The notes beneath the pieces were generated by a model that saw only the letters and a program-made list of their open reading frames with translations, had not been told where the DNA came from and did no database searches. A program made the translations under genes and the position numbers. This document shows positions 40,208-51,090 of a stretch of DNA of 64,000 nt, piece by piece (the stretch's first letter is position 1; each line of letters opens with the position of its first letter). The stretch lies in contig NZ_AUNE01000038.1 in assembly GCF_000447755.1 (NCBI RefSeq), positions 1 to 64,000 on the forward strand, given 5' to 3'. The DNA is from Bacteriovorax sp. BSW11_IV (GTDB lineage Bacteria; Bdellovibrionota; Bacteriovoracia; Bacteriovoracales; Bacteriovoracaceae).

Positions 40208-40606
40208 ATGGCCGAGCAAAGAAATCAGAATTTTAAAGTATTAGTAGTCGACGATTCGGACTTTTCTAGGAAGACCACTGTGGAAATTCTAGAAAGGCAC
40301 GGTTTTAATGTTGTAGGAAACGCCAGTAGTGCTGAAAAAGGTCTTCTTCTTGCGCAAAGTACTAGAGCAAATCTCTATATAGTTGATGTCGTCATGCCTA
40401 AAGTGAGTGGTATAGAGTTCGCCAAAAGATTGATGGAATTGAGAACTGGTGTATATATTATCATGACTTCTTCTCTCGATATGGAAAGTGTTGTGATTGA
40501 ATCAATTTCTAATGGGGCCATTGATTTTTTAACGAAGCCATTTACAGAAGAAACACTGATTAATTCGGTTGAAAAAATTGAAAGAGAATTCGACAGGGAT
40601 AAGTAA
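40208..40606 (+). CDS. CheY-like single-domain response regulator
   Basis: 132 aa, a receiver domain only. Acidic pocket DDSDFSRK, phosphoacceptor Asp in LYIVDVVMPKVSG, Thr/Ser in MTSS, and Lys in DFLTKPF. No output domain, so it acts by protein-protein contact (motor or kinase relay). Its stop overlaps the start of the next gene (TAATG), which suggests coupled expression with a small membrane protein. Confidence 0.95.
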   Translation: MAEQRNQNFKVLVVDDSDFSRKTTVEILERHGFNVVGNASSAEKGLLLAQSTRANLYIVDVVMPKVSGIEFAKRLMELRTGVYIIMTSSLDMESVVIESISNGAIDFLTKPFTEETLINSVEKIEREFDRDK

Positions 40607-40941
40607 TGTTTTTATTTAAATTTATATTTAACTTTTCTTTGAGCTTTATTCTTCTGTCTATTCCAGTCAAGAATAAGCCCGTTTTCTCACATATTTATGA
40701 TGTAACGAAACCCTACACTCAAAAAATCATTACTTTTAGTGAAGAAACATTCAACACTATTTATGTTGATGTTTCGGCCGTAATGAAAAAAAGCTATTCA
40801 AACTCAAGTCCAGAATCTTTAGAAGAAGATTCCCTTAGCCTAAGTGCATCAGCTTCTGATGAGATAGATTCTCATGCTGAGAGCTACACAGACGAAGAGA
40901 AAGAGGCCTTAAAGAAGATCTTTGAATCACAAGGCCTCTAA
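40606..40941 (+). CDS. Small membrane-anchored acidic protein
   Basis: 111 aa. The N-terminal hydrophobic segment (residues 1-20, FKFIFNFSLSFILLSIPV) is an anchor or signal. A Ser/Glu/Asp-rich stretch follows (PESLEEDSLSLSASASDEID), then a short helix DEEKEALKKIFESQGL. No family is recognised. It is coupled to the CheY-like gene and convergent with the small exported peptide gene at 40952. Confidence 0.7.
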   Translation: MFLFKFIFNFSLSFILLSIPVKNKPVFSHIYDVTKPYTQKIITFSEETFNTIYVDVSAVMKKSYSNSSPESLEEDSLSLSASASDEIDSHAESYTDEEKEALKKIFESQGL

Positions 40942-40951
40942 GCCATCAAAT

Positions 40952-41149
40952 TTAATCCCTAACTTCTGAAGAACTCTTAGCCTCAGTCTTAGGCTTAACA
41001 GCGTCTGGTGAGCTATTTTTAGCTTCAGAAGATGCTACTCTTGAATCTAGGTTTGCCATTGTTCTAGCGCAATCATCTGTTGCCATTTCACCAACAGCTA
41101 GAGTTGAAAAAGAAGATACGATAGCTAGAGTTAAGATAAGTTTTTTCAT
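40952..41149 (-). CDS. Small exported single-Cys peptide (family member 1)
   Basis: 65 aa. Residues 1-20 are a signal peptide (ILTLAIVSSFSTLAVGEMA). The mature peptide of about 45 residues starts with ATDDCARTMANLD, the only Cys, followed by a Ser/Lys/Glu-rich disordered tail ending SSEVRD. A very strong SD (GGGGAGGACC) precedes the ATG. The near-consensus sigma-54 promoter at 41190-41207 gives a leader of about 30 bases. It resembles the 63-aa product of 41358-41549 in layout and in the C-terminal ending (EVRD / EARD). Function unknown. Confidence 0.8.
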   Translation of the reverse strand: MKKLILTLAIVSSFSTLAVGEMATDDCARTMANLDSRVASSEAKNSSPDAVKPKTEAKSSSEVRD

Positions 41150-41189
41150 TTGGTCCTCCCCAATTTTCTTATTTCTATACCAATACTAT

Positions 41190-41207
41190 AAGCATGATAT
41201 GTGCCAA
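41190..41207 (-). promoter_or_regulatory. Sigma-54 promoter of exported peptide 1
   Basis: Minus strand TTGGCACATATCATGCTT. GG at 41205-41204 and GC at 41193-41192 have exact -24/-12 spacing, with a perfect TGGCAC. It is 41 bases before the ATG at 41149. Confidence 0.8.
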
Positions 41208-41291
41208 ATTTTGTTTTGTGATTTCAGTGATTTAAAAAGAAGGGATTGTATAAATTGCAAACAATGTCGATAAATTAGACGAAAAATAATC

Positions 41292-41340
41292 GGAAGAACA
41301 CCATTCACATATTGGGGGGGGAAGGTAATGGTGTTCTTCC
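41292..41340 (-). terminator. 13-bp hairpin with C8 loop in the 3' UTR of peptide 2
   Basis: GGAAGAACACCAT (41292-41304) pairs perfectly with ATGGTGTTCTTCC (41328-41340). The 23-base loop contains G8 on the plus strand (41314-41321), read as CCTTCCCCCCCC in the minus-strand mRNA. After the stem the minus strand has GATTATTTTTCG, a weak U-run, so it can end transcription of the peptide 2 gene. A second C7 run (41350-41356) lies right after that gene's stop. Confidence 0.7.
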
Positions 41341-41357
41341 AACTATATAGGGGGGGA

Positions 41358-41549
41358 TTAATCTCTGGCTTCACCAGCAGATTTAACGTTTTTCACTTCT
41401 TGTCTAACTTCAACTTTTTCAGTTGGCTTAGATGAGCGAACAGAAGCTTGATCGATTCTTGAACACTCTTCAGTTGTAATTTGTCCAACTTCACCAGCAA
41501 AAGAAACAGTTCCTAATAATAGTCCTAAAATAATTGTTACCTTTTTCAT
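41358..41549 (-). CDS. Small exported single-Cys peptide (family member 2)
   Basis: 63 aa. The signal peptide is MKKVTIILGLLLGTVSFAG. The mature part begins EVGQITTEECSRIDQASVR with one Cys, then a Lys/Glu/Val-rich tail ending KSAGEARD. It shares the layout of peptide 1 (acidic pair then Cys near the mature N-terminus, Arg-Asp end). A strong SD (GGGAGG) precedes the ATG. The sigma-54 promoter at 41593-41609 lies 46 bases upstream. The 3' UTR carries C-runs and a long hairpin. Function unknown. Confidence 0.8.
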   Translation of the reverse strand: MKKVTIILGLLLGTVSFAGEVGQITTEECSRIDQASVRSSKPTEKVEVRQEVKNVKSAGEARD

Positions 41550-41592
41550 AATTGCCTCCCAAGCAGTTATTCATTTGTTATGCATTTATATA

Positions 41593-41609
41593 TGCGAACA
41601 ACGTGCCAA
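41593..41609 (-). promoter_or_regulatory. Sigma-54 promoter of exported peptide 2
   Basis: Minus strand TTTGGCACGTTGTTCGCAT. The -24 TTGGCACG is perfect. GG (41607-41606) and GC (41595-41594) have exact spacing; the -12 half is TCGC instead of TTGC. Start near 41583, giving a leader of about 33 bases. Confidence 0.82.
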
Positions 41610-41672
41610 AACTATTTGTTGCAGTTACAACGACTTAGCGACAAGGACTATATAGGTGATTGTTTAGTAGAC

Positions 41673-41684
41673 AGTCATATGACT
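41673..41684. promoter_or_regulatory. Possible enhancer-binding-protein site
   Basis: AGTCATATGACT, a perfect 12-bp palindrome about 65-80 bases upstream of the sigma-54 promoter of peptide 2. That is the distance at which activators of sigma-54 RNA polymerase bind. No copy was noticed near the other two sigma-54 sites. Confidence 0.35.
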
Positions 41685-41697
41685 AAAATTTGAACAA

Positions 41698-41732
41698 AAA
41701 AAGGCCACCTTGAAAGGTGGCCTTAATATAAA
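41698..41732 (-). terminator. Terminator of peptide 3 gene
   Basis: AAGGCCACCTT and AAGGTGGCCTT form an 11-bp stem with a tiny loop. On the minus strand it is followed by TTTTTTG. It ends the gene at 41754-41990 ahead of the peptide 2 promoter. Confidence 0.92.
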
Positions 41733-41753
41733 AACACTAAATGAGATTAGATT

Positions 41754-41990
41754 TTAGTTGCCTGAACCTTGAGTTCCTGGACGACCAGCGGCATCTTGAA
41801 CACTAGTATCAGAAGAGCCTTGTTGTGGATTTGGAACAGATTTTCCACCTGCTCTAAGCGTATCCATTACAGCTTCACAAGTTTCATCTACAGCACCGCC
41901 AGCTGTAACTCCAGAAGAGTTATCGGCATGAGTATTACCAATAAGTGTAAACATTCCAATGAAGAGAGAAAGTGCAATTGCTTTTTTCAT
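41754..41990 (-). CDS. Small exported single-Cys peptide (related, member 3)
   Basis: 78 aa from the ATG at 41990, with SD TGAGG at 41996-42000 and a signal peptide starting exactly there (MKKAIALSLFIGMFTLIGNTHA). The mature part has one Cys in GGAVDETCEAVMD, like the DDC/EEC of peptides 1 and 2. A Gly/Ser/Pro/Gln-rich tail ends GTQGSGN. No sigma-54 site is seen; TATAAT lies about 20 bases before the ATG. It lies downstream of the RHS gene, behind that gene's terminator. Confidence 0.75.
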   Translation of the reverse strand: MKKAIALSLFIGMFTLIGNTHADNSSGVTAGGAVDETCEAVMDTLRAGGKSVPNPQQGSSDTSVQDAAGRPGTQGSGN

Positions 41991-42060
41991 AAATACCTCA
42001 CATTTCCTATTATAATCGAGTTTCCAGTTTTTCAAAATTTGGGCCTTTTGGGCCAAAACA

Positions 42061-43783: not shown

Positions 43784-44674
43784 TTAAATTTTAATCTTCA
43801 CAATCTTCATAATTACGGTAAGTCCCGCTATTGTTAGGAGTAAAGCACCGATCATTATTATAATACCAAGTGGCTTTTCAAACATCCTTTCCATAGATCG
43901 CGGGTCCGAAAAGTAATAAATAATACCTATTGCAAACGGCATCGATGCAATTGTAAACCCTTGAAATTTCCCTTGTGCCGTATAGGTATCAACCTTCTGC
44001 TGTAAACGAACACGCTCTCGAATTACATCAACAATAGTGTCAAAAACTTCAGCAAGGTTACCCCCTGTCTCCCTCAAGATATTAACACTCGATACAAACA
44101 TATCGTTATCTTCTGTCGGCACTCTTTTGGCGAGGTTTTCAAAGCACTCTTCTAATGGCACACCAATTCTATTTTGTTGTAAAATCAGATTATATTCTTG
44201 AGATATGGGTGCTGGCATCTCATCTACAACCATCCCTACCGCCTGTGGTAGTGATAAACCGGCCCTAATTCCGTTCGAAAGAAGGGTCATGGCATCGACC
44301 ATTTGTGCGGCATATTTTTTAATTCTTTTCTCAACTAAATAATCCATAAAAGGCTTAGGAATTTTAAAGCCTAGAAATGTCATAATTAGGCCCATGATTA
44401 GACCAAGAATCCACTTTCCAATAGCTCCAAACAAAAGAATAGTGATTGCACCCGAACCAACAGATAGGGCCAACAGAGCATAAGTGATTTTATTTGGATC
44501 AATCTCAATGAATAACAACTCTAGTTTTTCGAGAATATACGTTCTCGTTCCAAGCGTTTGCCTTTCAATGAATTCAAAAATATTTACTGCATACTTAAAA
44601 CTGAATGCAAAAATCATGATCCCAACGAGACCAATCATACCTTTTTGTCCTAACAATTCTAAAAATACAGACAT
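43784..44674 (-). CDS. Tad pilus inner-membrane platform protein (TadB/TadC type)
   Basis: 296 aa, T2SSF domain. Membrane segments lie near residues 10-28, 62-80, 85-105, 240-258 and 268-290. The cytoplasmic part has ALTLLSNGIRAGLSL-type helices (AMTLLSNGIRAGLSLPQAVG, NILRETGGNLAEVFDTI). It works with the TadA ATPase to assemble the pilus. Usual Tad loci have two such proteins (TadB and TadC), and only one is found here. It lies 7 bases after the ATPase fusion gene. Confidence 0.9.
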   Translation of the reverse strand: MSVFLELLGQKGMIGLVGIMIFAFSFKYAVNIFEFIERQTLGTRTYILEKLELLFIEIDPNKITYALLALSVGSGAITILLFGAIGKWILGLIMGLIMTFLGFKIPKPFMDYLVEKRIKKYAAQMVDAMTLLSNGIRAGLSLPQAVGMVVDEMPAPISQEYNLILQQNRIGVPLEECFENLAKRVPTEDNDMFVSSVNILRETGGNLAEVFDTIVDVIRERVRLQQKVDTYTAQGKFQGFTIASMPFAIGIIYYFSDPRSMERMFEKPLGIIIMIGALLLTIAGLTVIMKIVKIKI

Positions 44675-44681
44675 CTCTTAC

Positions 44682-46913
44682 CTACTTCTTAATCGGCTTT
44701 TTAGGTGGTACCTTTCCGCCTGGCGCTGGTCCACCTGGTCTTGGAGCCCCTTGATTTCCAGGGCCCGACTGTGGAGTTTGTGCAACAGGCGCCGAAGGCG
44801 TATTACTAAATAGCCCACGAGGAATGTTGTAACCTTTCTTTTCGAGGATCTCGATGAATTTAGGAATGAAACCACTCGCTTGAAATTCACCGATAATCTT
44901 CCCGTTTTTATCCATGTCTTTTTGGTTGAAAGTATAAATATCCTGCAATGTAACGACATCACCTTGCATTCCACCAATTTCTGTAATGTGAGTGATCTTT
45001 CTCGATCCATCATCAAGACGTTTTTGCTGAATAATAATATGAACAGCAGCTGCAATCATTTCACGAATGGCCTTAGGAGTTAAACCAGCACCAGCATACT
45101 GAACAAGAGTCTCAATACGACCAATACACTCTCTAGGATTATTTGAGTGAACTGTTGTCATAGAGCCGTCGTGACCAGTTCCCATGGCCTGAAGCATATC
45201 AAGAGTTTCACCACCACGACACTCACCAACGACAATTCTATCTGGTCTCATCCTTAGGGTTTGTTTTACAAGACAGCGGATATCAATTTCCCCATCGCCT
45301 TCTAAAGATGGCGGACGTGTTTCTAATCGAACAATATGATCTTGAGGAAAGTTAAGCTCGGCAGAGTCTTCGCACGTAATGATACGTTCATTGGCCTGAA
45401 TGAAACCACCCAAGATATTTACAAGAGTCGTTTTACCGGAACCAGTACCACCACTTACGATAATATTTCTATGGGCCTCAACTGCAATTCTCATAAAGTC
45501 GGCCATATTCTGAGTTAGAGTACCAAATTTAACAAAATCTTTGTATGTCAGTCGGTGCTCTGGGAATTTTCTGATTGTAATTACACAACCATCAATTGCT
45601 GAAGGTGGGATAATAGCGTGTACACGTGATCCATCTTTAAGACGAGCATCTACATAAGGAGTTTTCTCATCAATACGACGACCAATTGGAGCAACAATTC
45701 TTTCAATTACGTTTAGAACTTGCCTATCATTTGTGAAGGTAATATCAGACTTTTTAATCTTACCACCATGTTCATAGTAGATTTTATTAGGTCCAACAAC
45801 CATGATCTCTGAACACTCTTTATCGGCCAGAAGATCTTCTAGTGGTCCAAGCCCTAGTGCTTCATCTAGAACTTCTTTTACAATTCTGTTCATATCTTCA
45901 CGACTTTTCAGAATTGACTTCGTATCTTCTTTACCAAGAATTTCTACGACTTTTTTCTTCGTTTGTTCACGTAAAATAACTTGCGCCTTAGGATCTGAAT
46001 CATCAGTTTTTTTAAGATCCATTTCATCAACAAGCGCTTTGTGAATTCTGGACTTTAAATCAGTCCAAACGTTTTTAGATTTTGGATCGACTGGACCACC
46101 AGACGCTCCTCCTCCAGAATCTGCCGCTTGCCCCATATCTTTGGGACGAGCAATCGCTTCTAGAGTTCTAAGAATATTCTTTTGTTGAATTTTACTTACA
46201 CACTCAATAACACCGCGAGAAAAAGCACTTCCTTTTGCAACAAGTACGGCAGGCTTTTTTTGGTTTAGAGCAAGGACACATGTTTGTTCGTCTTTTGGAA
46301 CTGCAGCAAAAACTGGTTTTCCGATCGTTTTCCCAATAACCTCAGTTGTAACAGGATGTCCCTTTTGATTTTGATTCACAATGACTTGAATCATATCTTT
46401 AGGAAAAAGCATCGTTACAAGATCTGAGTACATTCTCTTAGTCTGATTCAAAGCAAGAATATCTGGAGTCACAACCATAAAGATCATTGTAGAAAACTCT
46501 AATGCCTTTAGTGTTAATGGTGTCAGCTCAGATCCACCATCAATGATCGTTATAGGAAACAAACCAGTCGCGGCCTTAAGTGTTTTCCCCATTCCTTCTG
46601 AATCAATAGAGTCACTTTCATTAGGATCAGTTGGCATACTGATATAATTGACGCCACTTGGATGCGGAGTTATGAATTGAATAATACTTTTTGGATCAAT
46701 TGCTCCACCAAAAGAAGCAATATCGCGTACTGTTTTTTTAGGTTTGATACCTGTAATAAAGTTTTGATCCCCACTAGCTCGTTGATCAAAGTCCATAAAA
46801 AGAACTTTCATGCGTGCTTCTGTGGCATATGCAAAAGCTAAGTTGGCAGCAAATTGAGATTTCCCTTGTCCGCCCTTAGCTCCAATTACTGTGATAATGT
46901 GACCTTTGGCCAT
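44682..46913 (-). CDS. TadZ-TadA (CpaE-CpaF) fusion ATPase
   Basis: 743 aa. Residues 1 to about 245 are a ParA/MinD-like ATPase (TadZ/CpaE) with a deviant Walker A (GAKGGQGKSQFAANLAFAY). A linker of about 40 residues (SGGGASGGPVDPK) follows. Residues about 290-700 are the secretion ATPase TadA/CpaF, with Walker A GGTGSGKTTLVNILGG, the Asp/His boxes (CEDSAELNF) and Walker B region RPDRIVVGECRGGETLDML. A Pro/Gly-rich tail ends it. The fusion would tie pole localisation to pilus assembly. It overlaps the secretin stop by one base. Confidence 0.95.
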   Translation of the reverse strand: MAKGHIITVIGAKGGQGKSQFAANLAFAYATEARMKVLFMDFDQRASGDQNFITGIKPKKTVRDIASFGGAIDPKSIIQFITPHPSGVNYISMPTDPNESDSIDSEGMGKTLKAATGLFPITIIDGGSELTPLTLKALEFSTMIFMVVTPDILALNQTKRMYSDLVTMLFPKDMIQVIVNQNQKGHPVTTEVIGKTIGKPVFAAVPKDEQTCVLALNQKKPAVLVAKGSAFSRGVIECVSKIQQKNILRTLEAIARPKDMGQAADSGGGASGGPVDPKSKNVWTDLKSRIHKALVDEMDLKKTDDSDPKAQVILREQTKKKVVEILGKEDTKSILKSREDMNRIVKEVLDEALGLGPLEDLLADKECSEIMVVGPNKIYYEHGGKIKKSDITFTNDRQVLNVIERIVAPIGRRIDEKTPYVDARLKDGSRVHAIIPPSAIDGCVITIRKFPEHRLTYKDFVKFGTLTQNMADFMRIAVEAHRNIIVSGGTGSGKTTLVNILGGFIQANERIITCEDSAELNFPQDHIVRLETRPPSLEGDGEIDIRCLVKQTLRMRPDRIVVGECRGGETLDMLQAMGTGHDGSMTTVHSNNPRECIGRIETLVQYAGAGLTPKAIREMIAAAVHIIIQQKRLDDGSRKITHITEIGGMQGDVVTLQDIYTFNQKDMDKNGKIIGEFQASGFIPKFIEILEKKGYNIPRGLFSNTPSAPVAQTPQSGPGNQGAPRPGGPAPGGKVPPKKPIKK

Positions 46914-48397
46914 TATCTTGTTCTCCTTCTAAACTTTCTTTGTATTTCTTCAGTACCCTGTGAGGCCGACTGAATGATCTCAGGAGTGACGAAGACAACA
47001 AACTGACTTTTGGCAGTTGTATATCCTTTAGACCTGATGAAAGAGAGAAAGCCTGTACCATTTTCAACTTGATCAACACCATTAGGTGAATCTTTATCAT
47101 AAGAAGTTGTACTAGAACTTACGACAACTCCACCAACGACAGCTGATTCTTTAGATTTAACAACAACTGATGTACTAATATCGTTCGCAAATTTTTCTGG
47201 CGGATTACCTTGAGTCGAGCTGACCGAAATCCCTAGAGCAAGATCAATACTTTCCCCTGCTAGAATAGTTGGTGTCACGTTTAAATTAAATCCGGCCTCA
47301 ACACTTTCTGCTCTCGTAAATTCTTGAGTTCCTACACCAAAAGTTTTTGTCGAACTTTTCTTCAGAGTTCCTCTTGTTTGGTTTTTAGTAACGATAATCC
47401 CAGATTGGATAACTCTTGCATATCCAGCGGCCTTGGCTGATGACAACTTCGGAAATAGGTTTGAAATCGTTCCAGTAAGTGTCCCATCAGATTTTGTAGT
47501 CACACCACCATCCGTTGTTTTACCGAAACTAACACTTCCACCACCGTCACTTAGAGTTGGAGTCCATTTGAAACCAAAAAGCTTATTGTATGATTTTGTT
47601 AATTCTACAAATTGAGCTGTAATTTTAATCAATTTTGGCGGCGGCTGTGGCTGACTTTTTTCATTAACAACAATAAAGTTATTTATAATCGCCTTCTGAC
47701 TCGAAGTTTGGACCGCATCTTTTCTTCTGGCCAAACTTTCAATTCTGTCTGGGATATATGCAACAGCAATTTGCTCGGCACGAACTTTATCATTTGCATT
47801 TGTTACAATACCCTCTAACCAGTAGGCACCATTAACAACTCTTACAGTTACATCTCTCATGGCACTTTTTTGAATTTCTTCCTGCATTTTTTTAGCAATA
47901 ACTCTTTGAGTTTGTGGTGAAAGCTCAACTAGTGATAGGACATCAGGATATTTTTCCAAGATAGTAACAACGCGTCCAATATCATTGGGAACAACTATGT
48001 TTCCACCAATGTAAACCAGATCACCTTTTACACCAATCTCAAGACCTTCAACGTCACCGAGGAAATCTTTAAGTTTTTGTACAACAGTAGACTGATCATT
48101 TGCCGTAATATTAATAAGATATTTTGCTTTAATATCACCAACTGTATTTCTAATTGTTAAAGAAGTCTTACCAGGCTTTCTTCCTTTAAAAGTAATCTCT
48201 CTTTTCTGAGGAATAAGCTGATAGTTTAGAATTGATTCATTACCAATTTGAACTTTCGTCGAAGGGGCAAAGTCTAATTTTTCAATGTGATCAATCCCCA
48301 AAACAATATCAACGATCTTCTCAGGAACCTCTTGAGCTTCCTGCGAGAAAGTATTTATTGTTATCAATGCTAGAATTACAAATAGGTATTTTTTCAT
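46913..48397 (-). CDS. Tad pilus secretin (CpaC/RcpA)
   Basis: 494 aa. Signal peptide MKKYLFVILALITINTFSQ. An N-terminal pilus-assembly domain follows (IVLGIDHIEKLDFAPSTKVQ ... ITFKGRKPGKTSLTIRNTVG), then BON-like modules, and a C-terminal secretin domain (VEAGFNLNVTPTILAGESID, ending FVVFVTPEII). It forms the outer-membrane pore. It lies 2 bases after CpaB. Confidence 0.93.
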   Translation of the reverse strand: MKKYLFVILALITINTFSQEAQEVPEKIVDIVLGIDHIEKLDFAPSTKVQIGNESILNYQLIPQKREITFKGRKPGKTSLTIRNTVGDIKAKYLINITANDQSTVVQKLKDFLGDVEGLEIGVKGDLVYIGGNIVVPNDIGRVVTILEKYPDVLSLVELSPQTQRVIAKKMQEEIQKSAMRDVTVRVVNGAYWLEGIVTNANDKVRAEQIAVAYIPDRIESLARRKDAVQTSSQKAIINNFIVVNEKSQPQPPPKLIKITAQFVELTKSYNKLFGFKWTPTLSDGGGSVSFGKTTDGGVTTKSDGTLTGTISNLFPKLSSAKAAGYARVIQSGIIVTKNQTRGTLKKSSTKTFGVGTQEFTRAESVEAGFNLNVTPTILAGESIDLALGISVSSTQGNPPEKFANDISTSVVVKSKESAVVGGVVVSSSTTSYDKDSPNGVDQVENGTGFLSFIRSKGYTTAKSQFVVFVTPEIIQSASQGTEEIQRKFRRRTR

Positions 48398-48399
48398 AT

Positions 48400-49206
48400 T
48401 TATTGCTTATATTTGTCAGAGAAAAATTGTTTTGCTTTAAGTGCAGCATCTTCTCCAAGAACATCATAAAGTCTTGTGTCACCAATATTTACTTTTTGCT
48501 TATCGTTTACGTTCCTTAAACTTAGAATTGGTTTGAATGACCCATAAGTTAATAGGAAAAAGACTTTTTGCACTTGAAATGGATCAAGCTCAAGCGTTAC
48601 AGTGTTGTAACTTGAATATGTATTTAAATGCATTTTCTTAATTACTGTTGGTGTTTCAACACCAATGATAGGTAGGTTATTCGATACACTCATACCAGTA
48701 GAAAGAACGCGAACGTCTTGTAAAATTGTCTTTGCCGCCTGCTTATCTTTTTGCCCTGATGAATAATCAAGAGCTGCAATTACATCGACTCTATCACCTG
48801 GCTTAATAAGCTTACTTACGGCCTGTTGATCATTTAAACTAATCGCAATCGCTCTTTTCCCAACTGAAACTTCTCGAGAAAGACCCGTTTTCTCACCAGG
48901 AAAAGTTAATCTCGGTTTTGTAATTTGTTCACCTTTCAAAATCGGAACTGTCGCAACCGTATTTTCAACTTCTCTCATTGTTTTAAAGTGTCCGGGCGCT
49001 AAAAAGTTTTGCGGAACGTTTTTAACTGTAACTTTTGAATCATCAATAAGCTCAAACTCTTTAATATCTGTTTTTGCAACGACAACTGAACTCATTGTTC
49101 CATAGAGTTTTGTAAAATGTGTTTTTTGATCTTCTACGTATGTATAAACCATGAACATGGCAAATAACGAAATAACCAAAGCTAATGTGAATGAACGTGT
49201 ATTCAT
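48400..49206 (-). CDS. Tad pilus assembly protein CpaB/RcpC
   Basis: 268 aa. N-terminal membrane anchor (FTLALVISLFAMFMVYTYV), then an SAF domain (VVVAKTDIKEFELIDDSKVT, GEQITKPRLT) and the CpaB C-terminal region (KRAIAISLNDQQAVSKLIKP, GDRVDVIAAL). It is a periplasmic partner of the secretin. First of the cpaB-cpaC-tadZA-tadB run, separated by 79 bases from the prepilin genes. Confidence 0.93.
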   Translation of the reverse strand: MNTRSFTLALVISLFAMFMVYTYVEDQKTHFTKLYGTMSSVVVAKTDIKEFELIDDSKVTVKNVPQNFLAPGHFKTMREVENTVATVPILKGEQITKPRLTFPGEKTGLSREVSVGKRAIAISLNDQQAVSKLIKPGDRVDVIAALDYSSGQKDKQAAKTILQDVRVLSTGMSVSNNLPIIGVETPTVIKKMHLNTYSSYNTVTLELDPFQVQKVFFLLTYGSFKPILSLRNVNDKQKVNIGDTRLYDVLGEDAALKAKQFFSDKYKQ

Positions 49207-50370: not shown

Positions 50371-50611
50371 CATGCGCTCCTGCATAGCCATTAACATTTA
50401 AGTTAACCCCATCAACTCCATGACGGTAAGAATATTCAACTTTCCTTCTTAGTATATCAAAAACCTGAGAATTTGGTCCAAATAGTTTCAAGAAGGGCTG
50501 ACTTCTAAATATAGTCATTCCTAAGGTAACAAGAACTGAGAGTAATAAAATATACTCTACGGTACTTTGTCCTGCCTGTTTTTTTCTTAAATCAGATTTA
50601 GTTCTTTGCAT
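50306..50611 (-). CDS. Flp/TadE-like pseudopilin 3
   Basis: 101 aa from the ATG at 50611 (a TTG five codons earlier is also open). Leader RKKQAGQSTVEYILLLSVLV (Gly then Gln-Ser-Thr-Val-Glu), one helix, then a polar C-terminal domain with FFTPIKTYPD. It overlaps both the prepilin peptidase gene upstream and the next pseudopilin gene downstream. Confidence 0.82.
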   Translation of the reverse strand: MQRTKSDLRKKQAGQSTVEYILLLSVLVTLGMTIFRSQPFLKLFGPNSQVFDILRRKVEYSYRHGVDGVNLNVNGYAGAHDTYDLESGEKRFFTPIKTYPD

Positions 50612-51090
50612 CCAAATACTATCCAAGCTAACAACACTAATGGAGTATAAGGAAATTTTTTTCCAAACACACCTGCAATTATTTTCTTCTCTTTTATACC
50701 CAAGTAAACCAAAATTTTTTCTCTATTTAAAATAATATTTTTAATGGCGAGGGTTCCACCTACAATTACTGTTATCCAAGTTAAATAGTATAAAAACTCA
50801 ATCTGTTGGCGCTCACTTAATATGAGTAAAAAGCTAGAAATGAACTTTACGTCCCCTGCACCAGCAACGTTAAATACAAAAAGAATAAACCCTACTGTTA
50901 CAAAACAAACTGGTATGACTAAGGCCTTCCAATCAAATATTCCATTCATGGCATTATATGAAGTGATTAATCCAAAAATTAAAATGTGGAATACACTCCA
51001 GATATTTGCGACTTTACGAACCTTCAAATCAACATAGGACACTATTAAAAGTTCAATAATCATGAATATGAACAGAGTTGTAAAAATCAT
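50587..51090 (-). CDS. Prepilin peptidase (TadV/CpaA)
   Basis: 167 aa, about six membrane helices. Short A24-family peptidase: the first catalytic Asp is in VSYVDLKVRKVAN and the second in the GxGD motif (VAGAGDVKFISS). It cleaves Flp and TadE-type leaders after Gly. It shares one base with the preceding prepilin gene. Confidence 0.92.
   Translation of the reverse strand: MIFTTLFIFMIIELLIVSYVDLKVRKVANIWSVFHILIFGLITSYNAMNGIFDWKALVIPVCFVTVGFILFVFNVAGAGDVKFISSFLLILSERQQIEFLYYLTWITVIVGGTLAIKNIILNREKILVYLGIKEKKIIAGVFGKKFPYTPLVLLAWIVFGCKELNLI

Follow-up and report, generated by a model that had tools for sequence, protein, structure and literature searches.

The host-interaction (hit) locus of the predatory Bdellovibrio group ties the state of a pilus to whether a cell grows as a predator or independently of prey, and by what means it connects contact with prey to growth is a long-standing question. 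In the window, which is the whole 64,000-nucleotide stretch analysed here (contig NZ_AUNE01000038.1 of Bacteriovorax sp. BSW11_IV, positions 1 to 64,000), three very small genes for predicted exported peptides lie near Tad pilus genes, two of them behind candidate σ54 promoters, and the question is what these peptides are and whether they belong to such a locus. Comparison with relatives indicates that the hit locus gains an overlooked, conserved peptide arm with a predicted σ54 promoter and a common regulator site, which may add a component to the coupling of contact and growth.

The three ORFs, all on the minus strand, are listed with their surroundings in Table 1. Their coordinates and sequences bear out the preliminary description, in which each ORF encodes a signal peptide and a single Cys (in the contexts TDDC, TEEC, and DETC for peptides 1, 2, and 3, respectively), members 1 and 2 are preceded by near-consensus σ54 sites and strong Shine-Dalgarno sequences, and member 3 is without a σ54 promoter. 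Peptides 1 and 2 end in EVRD and EARD. The elements TTGGCACATATCATGCT and TTGGCACGTTGTTCGCA, which lie 41 and 43 nt from the respective ATG codons, have the -24/-12 arrangement (GG-N10-GC) near a start codon that is looked for in σ54-dependent genes. Peptide 3 starts approximately 90 nt after the YD gene and has a terminator at its end; peptides 2 and 1 come next, each encoded independently behind a σ54 site. The three had been described as a single class, which requires correction: member 3 belongs to the Tad-YD operon, where it occupies the bd0108 position. Poly-C runs 3' of peptide 2 (41292-41366) could pair with the G-rich Shine-Dalgarno sequence of peptide 1 (41150-41161).

Table 1. Peptide genes, predicted regulatory elements, and neighbouring genes in the window.
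Feature	Position	Strand	Remark
Single-domain response regulator	40208..40606	+	convergent neighbour; in many relatives up to HD100
Small membrane/exported ORF	40606..40941	+	coupled to response regulator
Peptide 1, 65 aa	40952..41149	-	exported, one Cys; σ54-class hit-locus peptide
Shine-Dalgarno GGGGAGG, peptide 1	41155..41161	-	read in sequence
Predicted σ54 promoter TTGGCACATATCATGCT, peptide 1	41191..41207	-	predicted start about 41180
Upstream dyad CGTCTAATTTATCGACA	41265..41281	-	likely bound by the activator of peptide 1; matches 11/14 consensus positions
Likely terminator, peptide 2	41292..41340	-	14-bp stem, then T-rich tail; read in sequence
Peptide 2, 63 aa	41358..41549	-	exported, one Cys; σ54-class hit-locus peptide
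Shine-Dalgarno GGGAGG, peptide 2	41555..41560	-	read in sequence
Predicted σ54 promoter TTGGCACGTTGTTCGCA, peptide 2	41593..41609	-	predicted start about 41582
Upstream dyad TGTTCAAATTTTAGTCA	41680..41696	-	likely bound by the activator of peptide 2; matches 11/14 consensus positions
Intrinsic terminator	41701..41724	-	3' of peptide 3
Peptide 3, 78 aa	41754..41990	-	exported, one Cys, without σ54 site; bd0108 positional equivalent
Exported Rhs/YD protein, 540 aa	42080..43702	-	DUF6531 and RHS repeats; Bd0109 homologue
TadB-type platform protein (T2SSF)	43784..44674	-	
CpaE/CpaF (TadZ-TadA) fusion ATPase	44682..46913	-	Tad pilus
Secretin, RcpA/CpaC type	46913..48397	-	
RcpC/CpaB	48400..49206	-	
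Prepilin peptidase, TadV type	50587..51090	-	

Gene order and homology identify the window locus as the Bdellovibrio hit locus in its Bacteriovorax-side form. The order beside the Tad genes is identical to that in Bdellovibrio bacteriovorus (Bd0109, Bd0108; PMC3818213, PMC4267844): in both, an exported Rhs/YD protein free of a toxin domain is followed, directly 3' and on the same strand, by a small exported polar operonic peptide, which in the window is member 3. The synteny TadB, YD protein, operonic peptide, σ54-preceded peptide(s), and convergent response regulator is common to the window, Halobacteriovorax marinus SJ (locus L130), and Bdellovibrio HD100 (L141). The small ORF that accompanies the response regulator is retained in many Bacteriovorax-side relatives, and HD100 has a similarly placed 86-aa ORF. 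The window YD protein is 34% identical to HD100 Bd0109 over the alignment, and a YD relative is present in most genomes of the phylum sample, adjacent to Tad genes where inspected. In HD100, the 101-aa ORF after the YD gene matches the curated Bd0108 model, NF053838, at 1.9e-29, whereas none of the three window peptides, member 3 included, matches this model, nor does the σ54 peptide of HD100. The locus differs from the published one by its extra class of single-Cys peptides with predicted σ54 promoters, which as proteins are absent from the papers found. In H. marinus SJ, the Bd0109 homologue BMS_0182 has two small signal-peptide neighbours that are dissimilar to Bd0108 (PMC4267844); these, BMS_0183 and BMS_0184, very probably correspond to the genes described here, and are given a single sentence in that paper as unrelated to Bd0108, with family, Cys, and promoter unremarked.

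The YD neighbour carries the RHS repeats of Rhs/YD cage proteins, and its predicted structure (mean pLDDT 86) matches Rhs cores. The modelled fold is that of T6SS Rhs cores and Tc toxin B/C cages; the window protein differs from these in being about half as long, in having a Sec signal, and in that no toxin or protease domain was recognized in it. The model agrees with the encapsulation idea of an earlier study, in which Bd0108 was disordered, bound Bd0109 weakly, with a Kd of 45 uM, and in vitro assembled into disulfide-linked oligomers (PMC4267844). Of 52 YD protein sequences, 47 contain a conserved pair of vicinal Cys (ECCxLP), which HD100 Bd0109 lacks. Within the Tad cluster, a CpaE-like ParA domain and a CpaF-type T2SSE ATPase are joined in one 743-aa protein (44682-46913).

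Approximately 50 distinct relatives keep the same order, with the YD gene, an operonic exported peptide without a σ54 site, and usually one or two σ54-preceded peptides. By a strict site test, at least one σ54-preceded peptide is found at 76 of 104 Tad-adjacent YD loci, and at 58 of 68 in the window's family; such a gene is present in 19 of 20 loci of the HD100 family. These tallies are counts and not rates, because sampling is uneven among families. Loci negative in the strict test include L119, L133, and L139, where the sites are slightly degenerate (L119 has a good dyad), and L132, where the peptide has been relocated into the operon. In one genus (L040, L042, L066, and L132), a σ54-class peptide without a σ54 site lies a few bases after the operonic peptide. 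Over all loci, 129 distinct σ54-class peptide genes were collected, 121 of them with exactly one Cys. This residue is present in 75 of 75 aligned peptides, one of which is a doubtful extra ORF in L056, and is the sole invariant residue of the aligned mature chains, in the surrounding pattern GE...(D/E)C....Q...R. Conservation of the ORF, of the Cys position, and of the upstream GG-N10-GC had been proposed as checks on the initial observation; all three hold among the relatives, which also share an upstream dyad.

Substitutions follow the reading frame. Among 20 independent pairs, pS is 0.42 and pN is 0.14 (pN/pS 0.32), with 208, 136, and 400 differences at the first, second, and third codon positions; HD100 and its near relative L180 differ by 12 synonymous changes and 1 non-synonymous change. 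The ratio and the codon-position pattern indicate that the peptide gene is selected as a protein. On these comparative grounds the three-peptide observation is confirmed as beyond chance, with ORFs that are real, coding, and conserved. Profile comparison of the mature Bacteriovorax-side and Bdellovibrio-side peptides detects no homology (hhalign E 0.47), so the equivalence of the two sides rests on position, architecture, promoter, and dyad.

The σ54 pattern has 7 matches in the window (at most two mismatches) against 5.1 expected, which is not significant by itself; since a match within the window is unconvincing, the case for the promoters rests on comparison among relatives. In 52 related loci there are 88 σ54-like sites, 75 of which lie just 5' of a short exported ORF, and the host genome (that of BSW11_IV) has 13 matches to the pattern and 0 to a reversed control. 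Both groups, Bacteriovorax-side and Bdellovibrio-side, share an upstream dyad with the consensus TGTCTMA-N3-TKAGACA; a match at 11 or more of its 14 positions is found in 104 of the 129 promoters, compared with 5.8 in shuffles. Dyad distances mostly cluster at approximately 49, 58, 67, 78, and 88 bp, a period of about 10 bp for which statistical support is overstated because the sequences are related; such phasing is expected of an enhancer-binding activator acting from one face of the DNA. In several Bdellovibrio genomes, HD100 included (L140-L143, L180-L192), the dyad precedes the -24 element by only some 15 bp, a spacing unusually close for an enhancer that could also be compatible with repression.

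The same dyad and σ54 arrangement is found 5' of other exported proteins and lipoproteins, and two more σ54-preceded exported genes of the host have a dyad at about 60 and 68 bp. The peptides therefore appear to belong to a wider predicted envelope regulon, and what was initially called a small regulon of secreted peptides has to be enlarged to take in larger exported proteins and lipoproteins. A σ54 regulon composed mostly of exported proteins is likewise described, in the available part of that source, where σ54 is presented as a controller of the bacterial exterior (PMC3162934); relative to the regulon treated there, the dyad and regulon seen here are lineage-specific. The shared arrangement, together with the location of most host σ54 sites of this pattern before exported proteins, would fit a reading in which the peptides are general products of envelope stress or remodelling that lie beside the hit locus by history and act on neither the YD protein nor the pilus. 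We consider this rather unlikely, given that placement after the YD gene and operonic peptide is conserved on both sides of the phylum, and that the HD100 transcript described below follows bd0108 genotype and not axenic growth alone, being low in HID2.

The Bdellovibrio counterpart connects the family to published genetics. Downstream of bd0108, HD100 encodes an exported peptide of 66 aa with one Cys (MKKIVQATIAMSLIASVAMANTGVSCKNNS...); the predicted σ54 site CTGGCACACGCGATGCA precedes it, with a predicted start at 96732. A small non-coding RNA has been reported at 96436-96822, with its gene at 96455-96716 (261 nt; PMC3818213). This is the same DNA: the 66-codon peptide ORF (96483-96683) lies within the sRNA gene, and the published RT-PCR primers map exactly (F 96555-96574, R 96633-96652), both inside the ORF. 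The published sRNA, described as non-coding, is most likely the mRNA of a σ54-type peptide, from a conserved protein-coding gene with a predicted σ54 promoter; the peptide was missed in the published genetics because the transcript was taken for a non-coding RNA. The sRNA level is raised in the bd0108 mutants HID13 and HID22 and in a bd0108 deletion, and is low in HD100 and in HID2, whose bd0108 is wild-type (PMC3818213); these data suggest feedback from Bd0108 onto the peptide gene. Its absence from the attack-phase sRNA list (PMC3627812) agrees with the low level in attack-phase HD100. In a non-exhaustive literature no later paper on the sRNA was found, and in the current annotation the ORF may already figure as a hypothetical protein. 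The epithet 'undescribed' in the preliminary description is thus right in part: no source was found on the peptide family or its σ54 promoters, but the hit locus, the HD100 transcript as a non-coding RNA, and the H. marinus SJ neighbours had already been mentioned.

A locus product that acts mainly as regulatory RNA, the published view for HD100, with an incidental or dual-function ORF, would accord with a short, monocistronic transcript whose level tracks bd0108 genotype (PMC3818213). Purifying selection at the codon level makes this improbable, as a regulatory non-coding RNA should have no conserved translated ORF; 129 genes retain signal peptide, Cys, and Shine-Dalgarno sequence, and Rfam gives no match in L141 (HD100) and only sub-threshold, chance-level matches in the window. 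We also give little credence to secreted pheromone-like signals sensed by kin or prey at contact, a role for which one could cite small, exported, polar products with fast-evolving tails, 1-3 copies per genome, an adjacent Tad pilus, and the noted quorum-like character of host-independent growth (PMC4267844). The adjoining genes include no recognized dedicated exporter, processing protease, or receptor. In a Gram-negative cell, moreover, a Sec signal by itself delivers to the periplasm. A role as tip adhesins or as minor components of the Tad pilus, for which the adjoining Tad genes might speak, is very improbable, as the peptides have a Sec signal whose cleavage site is of the AxA type, and their mature chain is hydrophilic where Flp/Tad pilins have a hydrophobic mature N-terminus, and the window peptides have no Flp/prepilin motif, transmembrane helix, or Pfam or NCBIfam match.

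Lipid modification of the lone Cys, an option raised at the outset, finds no support: a lipobox is present at the signal cleavage site of 1 of the 129 peptides, and the Cys is mostly 7-20 residues into the mature chain.

The reading we favour, and regard as probable, is that members 1 and 2 are σ54-promoted, exported, probably disordered single-Cys peptides, which give the hit locus an additional, inducible arm, that member 3 is the operonic peptide of the Bd0108 position, and that the products act as follows. The Tad operon would yield the Rhs/YD protein, as a cage-like shell at the cell wall, together with the Bd0108-type peptide. Upon a change in pilus, envelope, or Bd0108 status, an enhancer-binding activator at the TGTCTMA-N3-TKAGACA dyads would fire σ54 RNA polymerase, and the single-Cys peptides would then be produced and exported. 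Once exported, they may couple to the YD protein and the Bd0108-type peptide or else compete with them; an intermolecular disulfide would form through the single Cys, and pilus signalling would thereby be reset. In this role the peptides would probably bind the Rhs cage as disordered, thiol-linked ligands and report on the state of the pilus or the envelope.

Cys counts bear on the proposed bond. The operonic peptides of the Bd0108 position (L015-L127) have 1 to 9 mature Cys, and the number is odd in 52 of 57 in the window's family; an odd number leaves one Cys unpaired and the σ54 peptides have one, which favours an intermolecular disulfide on the Rhs cage, either between the two classes or within a dimer. 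This argument fails in HD100, because Bd0108 has two Cys paired internally (CXXC disulfide). The YD protein need not supply its vicinal Cys pair as a partner, since this pair is lost in L043, L054, L058, and L063, where the peptides retain their Cys; an obligate disulfide to this pair is thereby ruled out. A broader proposal, which we put forward only tentatively, is a phylum-wide thiol switch for predation, in which two disordered exported peptides would successively occupy an Rhs cage at the pilus, the first made with the pilus and the second induced through σ54 if the first is absent or engaged; intermolecular disulfides would then signal commitment to growth. The peptide family combines conservation on both main sides of the phylum with a predicted promoter class, a common upstream site, and a single mutable residue.

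The host genome carries rpoN, the gene for σ54, and so do 35 of the 36 phylum genomes checked; as the gene is nearly universal, its co-occurrence with the peptides is uninformative, and some families are without the peptide despite having rpoN. Among activator candidates, the host genome has 14 PF00158 matches, none of which was singled out, and a weak dyad before the PF00158 gene at C22 is a hint only. Thirteen host loci (L078-L090) have consensus σ54 sites followed by ATGAAR, 11 of them before proteins with a signal sequence, so that σ54 in the host lineage looks largely given to exported proteins. At four further host loci (L202, L204, L205, and L206), TGTCTAA-N3-TTAGACA precedes genes for exported proteins that are without a clear σ54 site.
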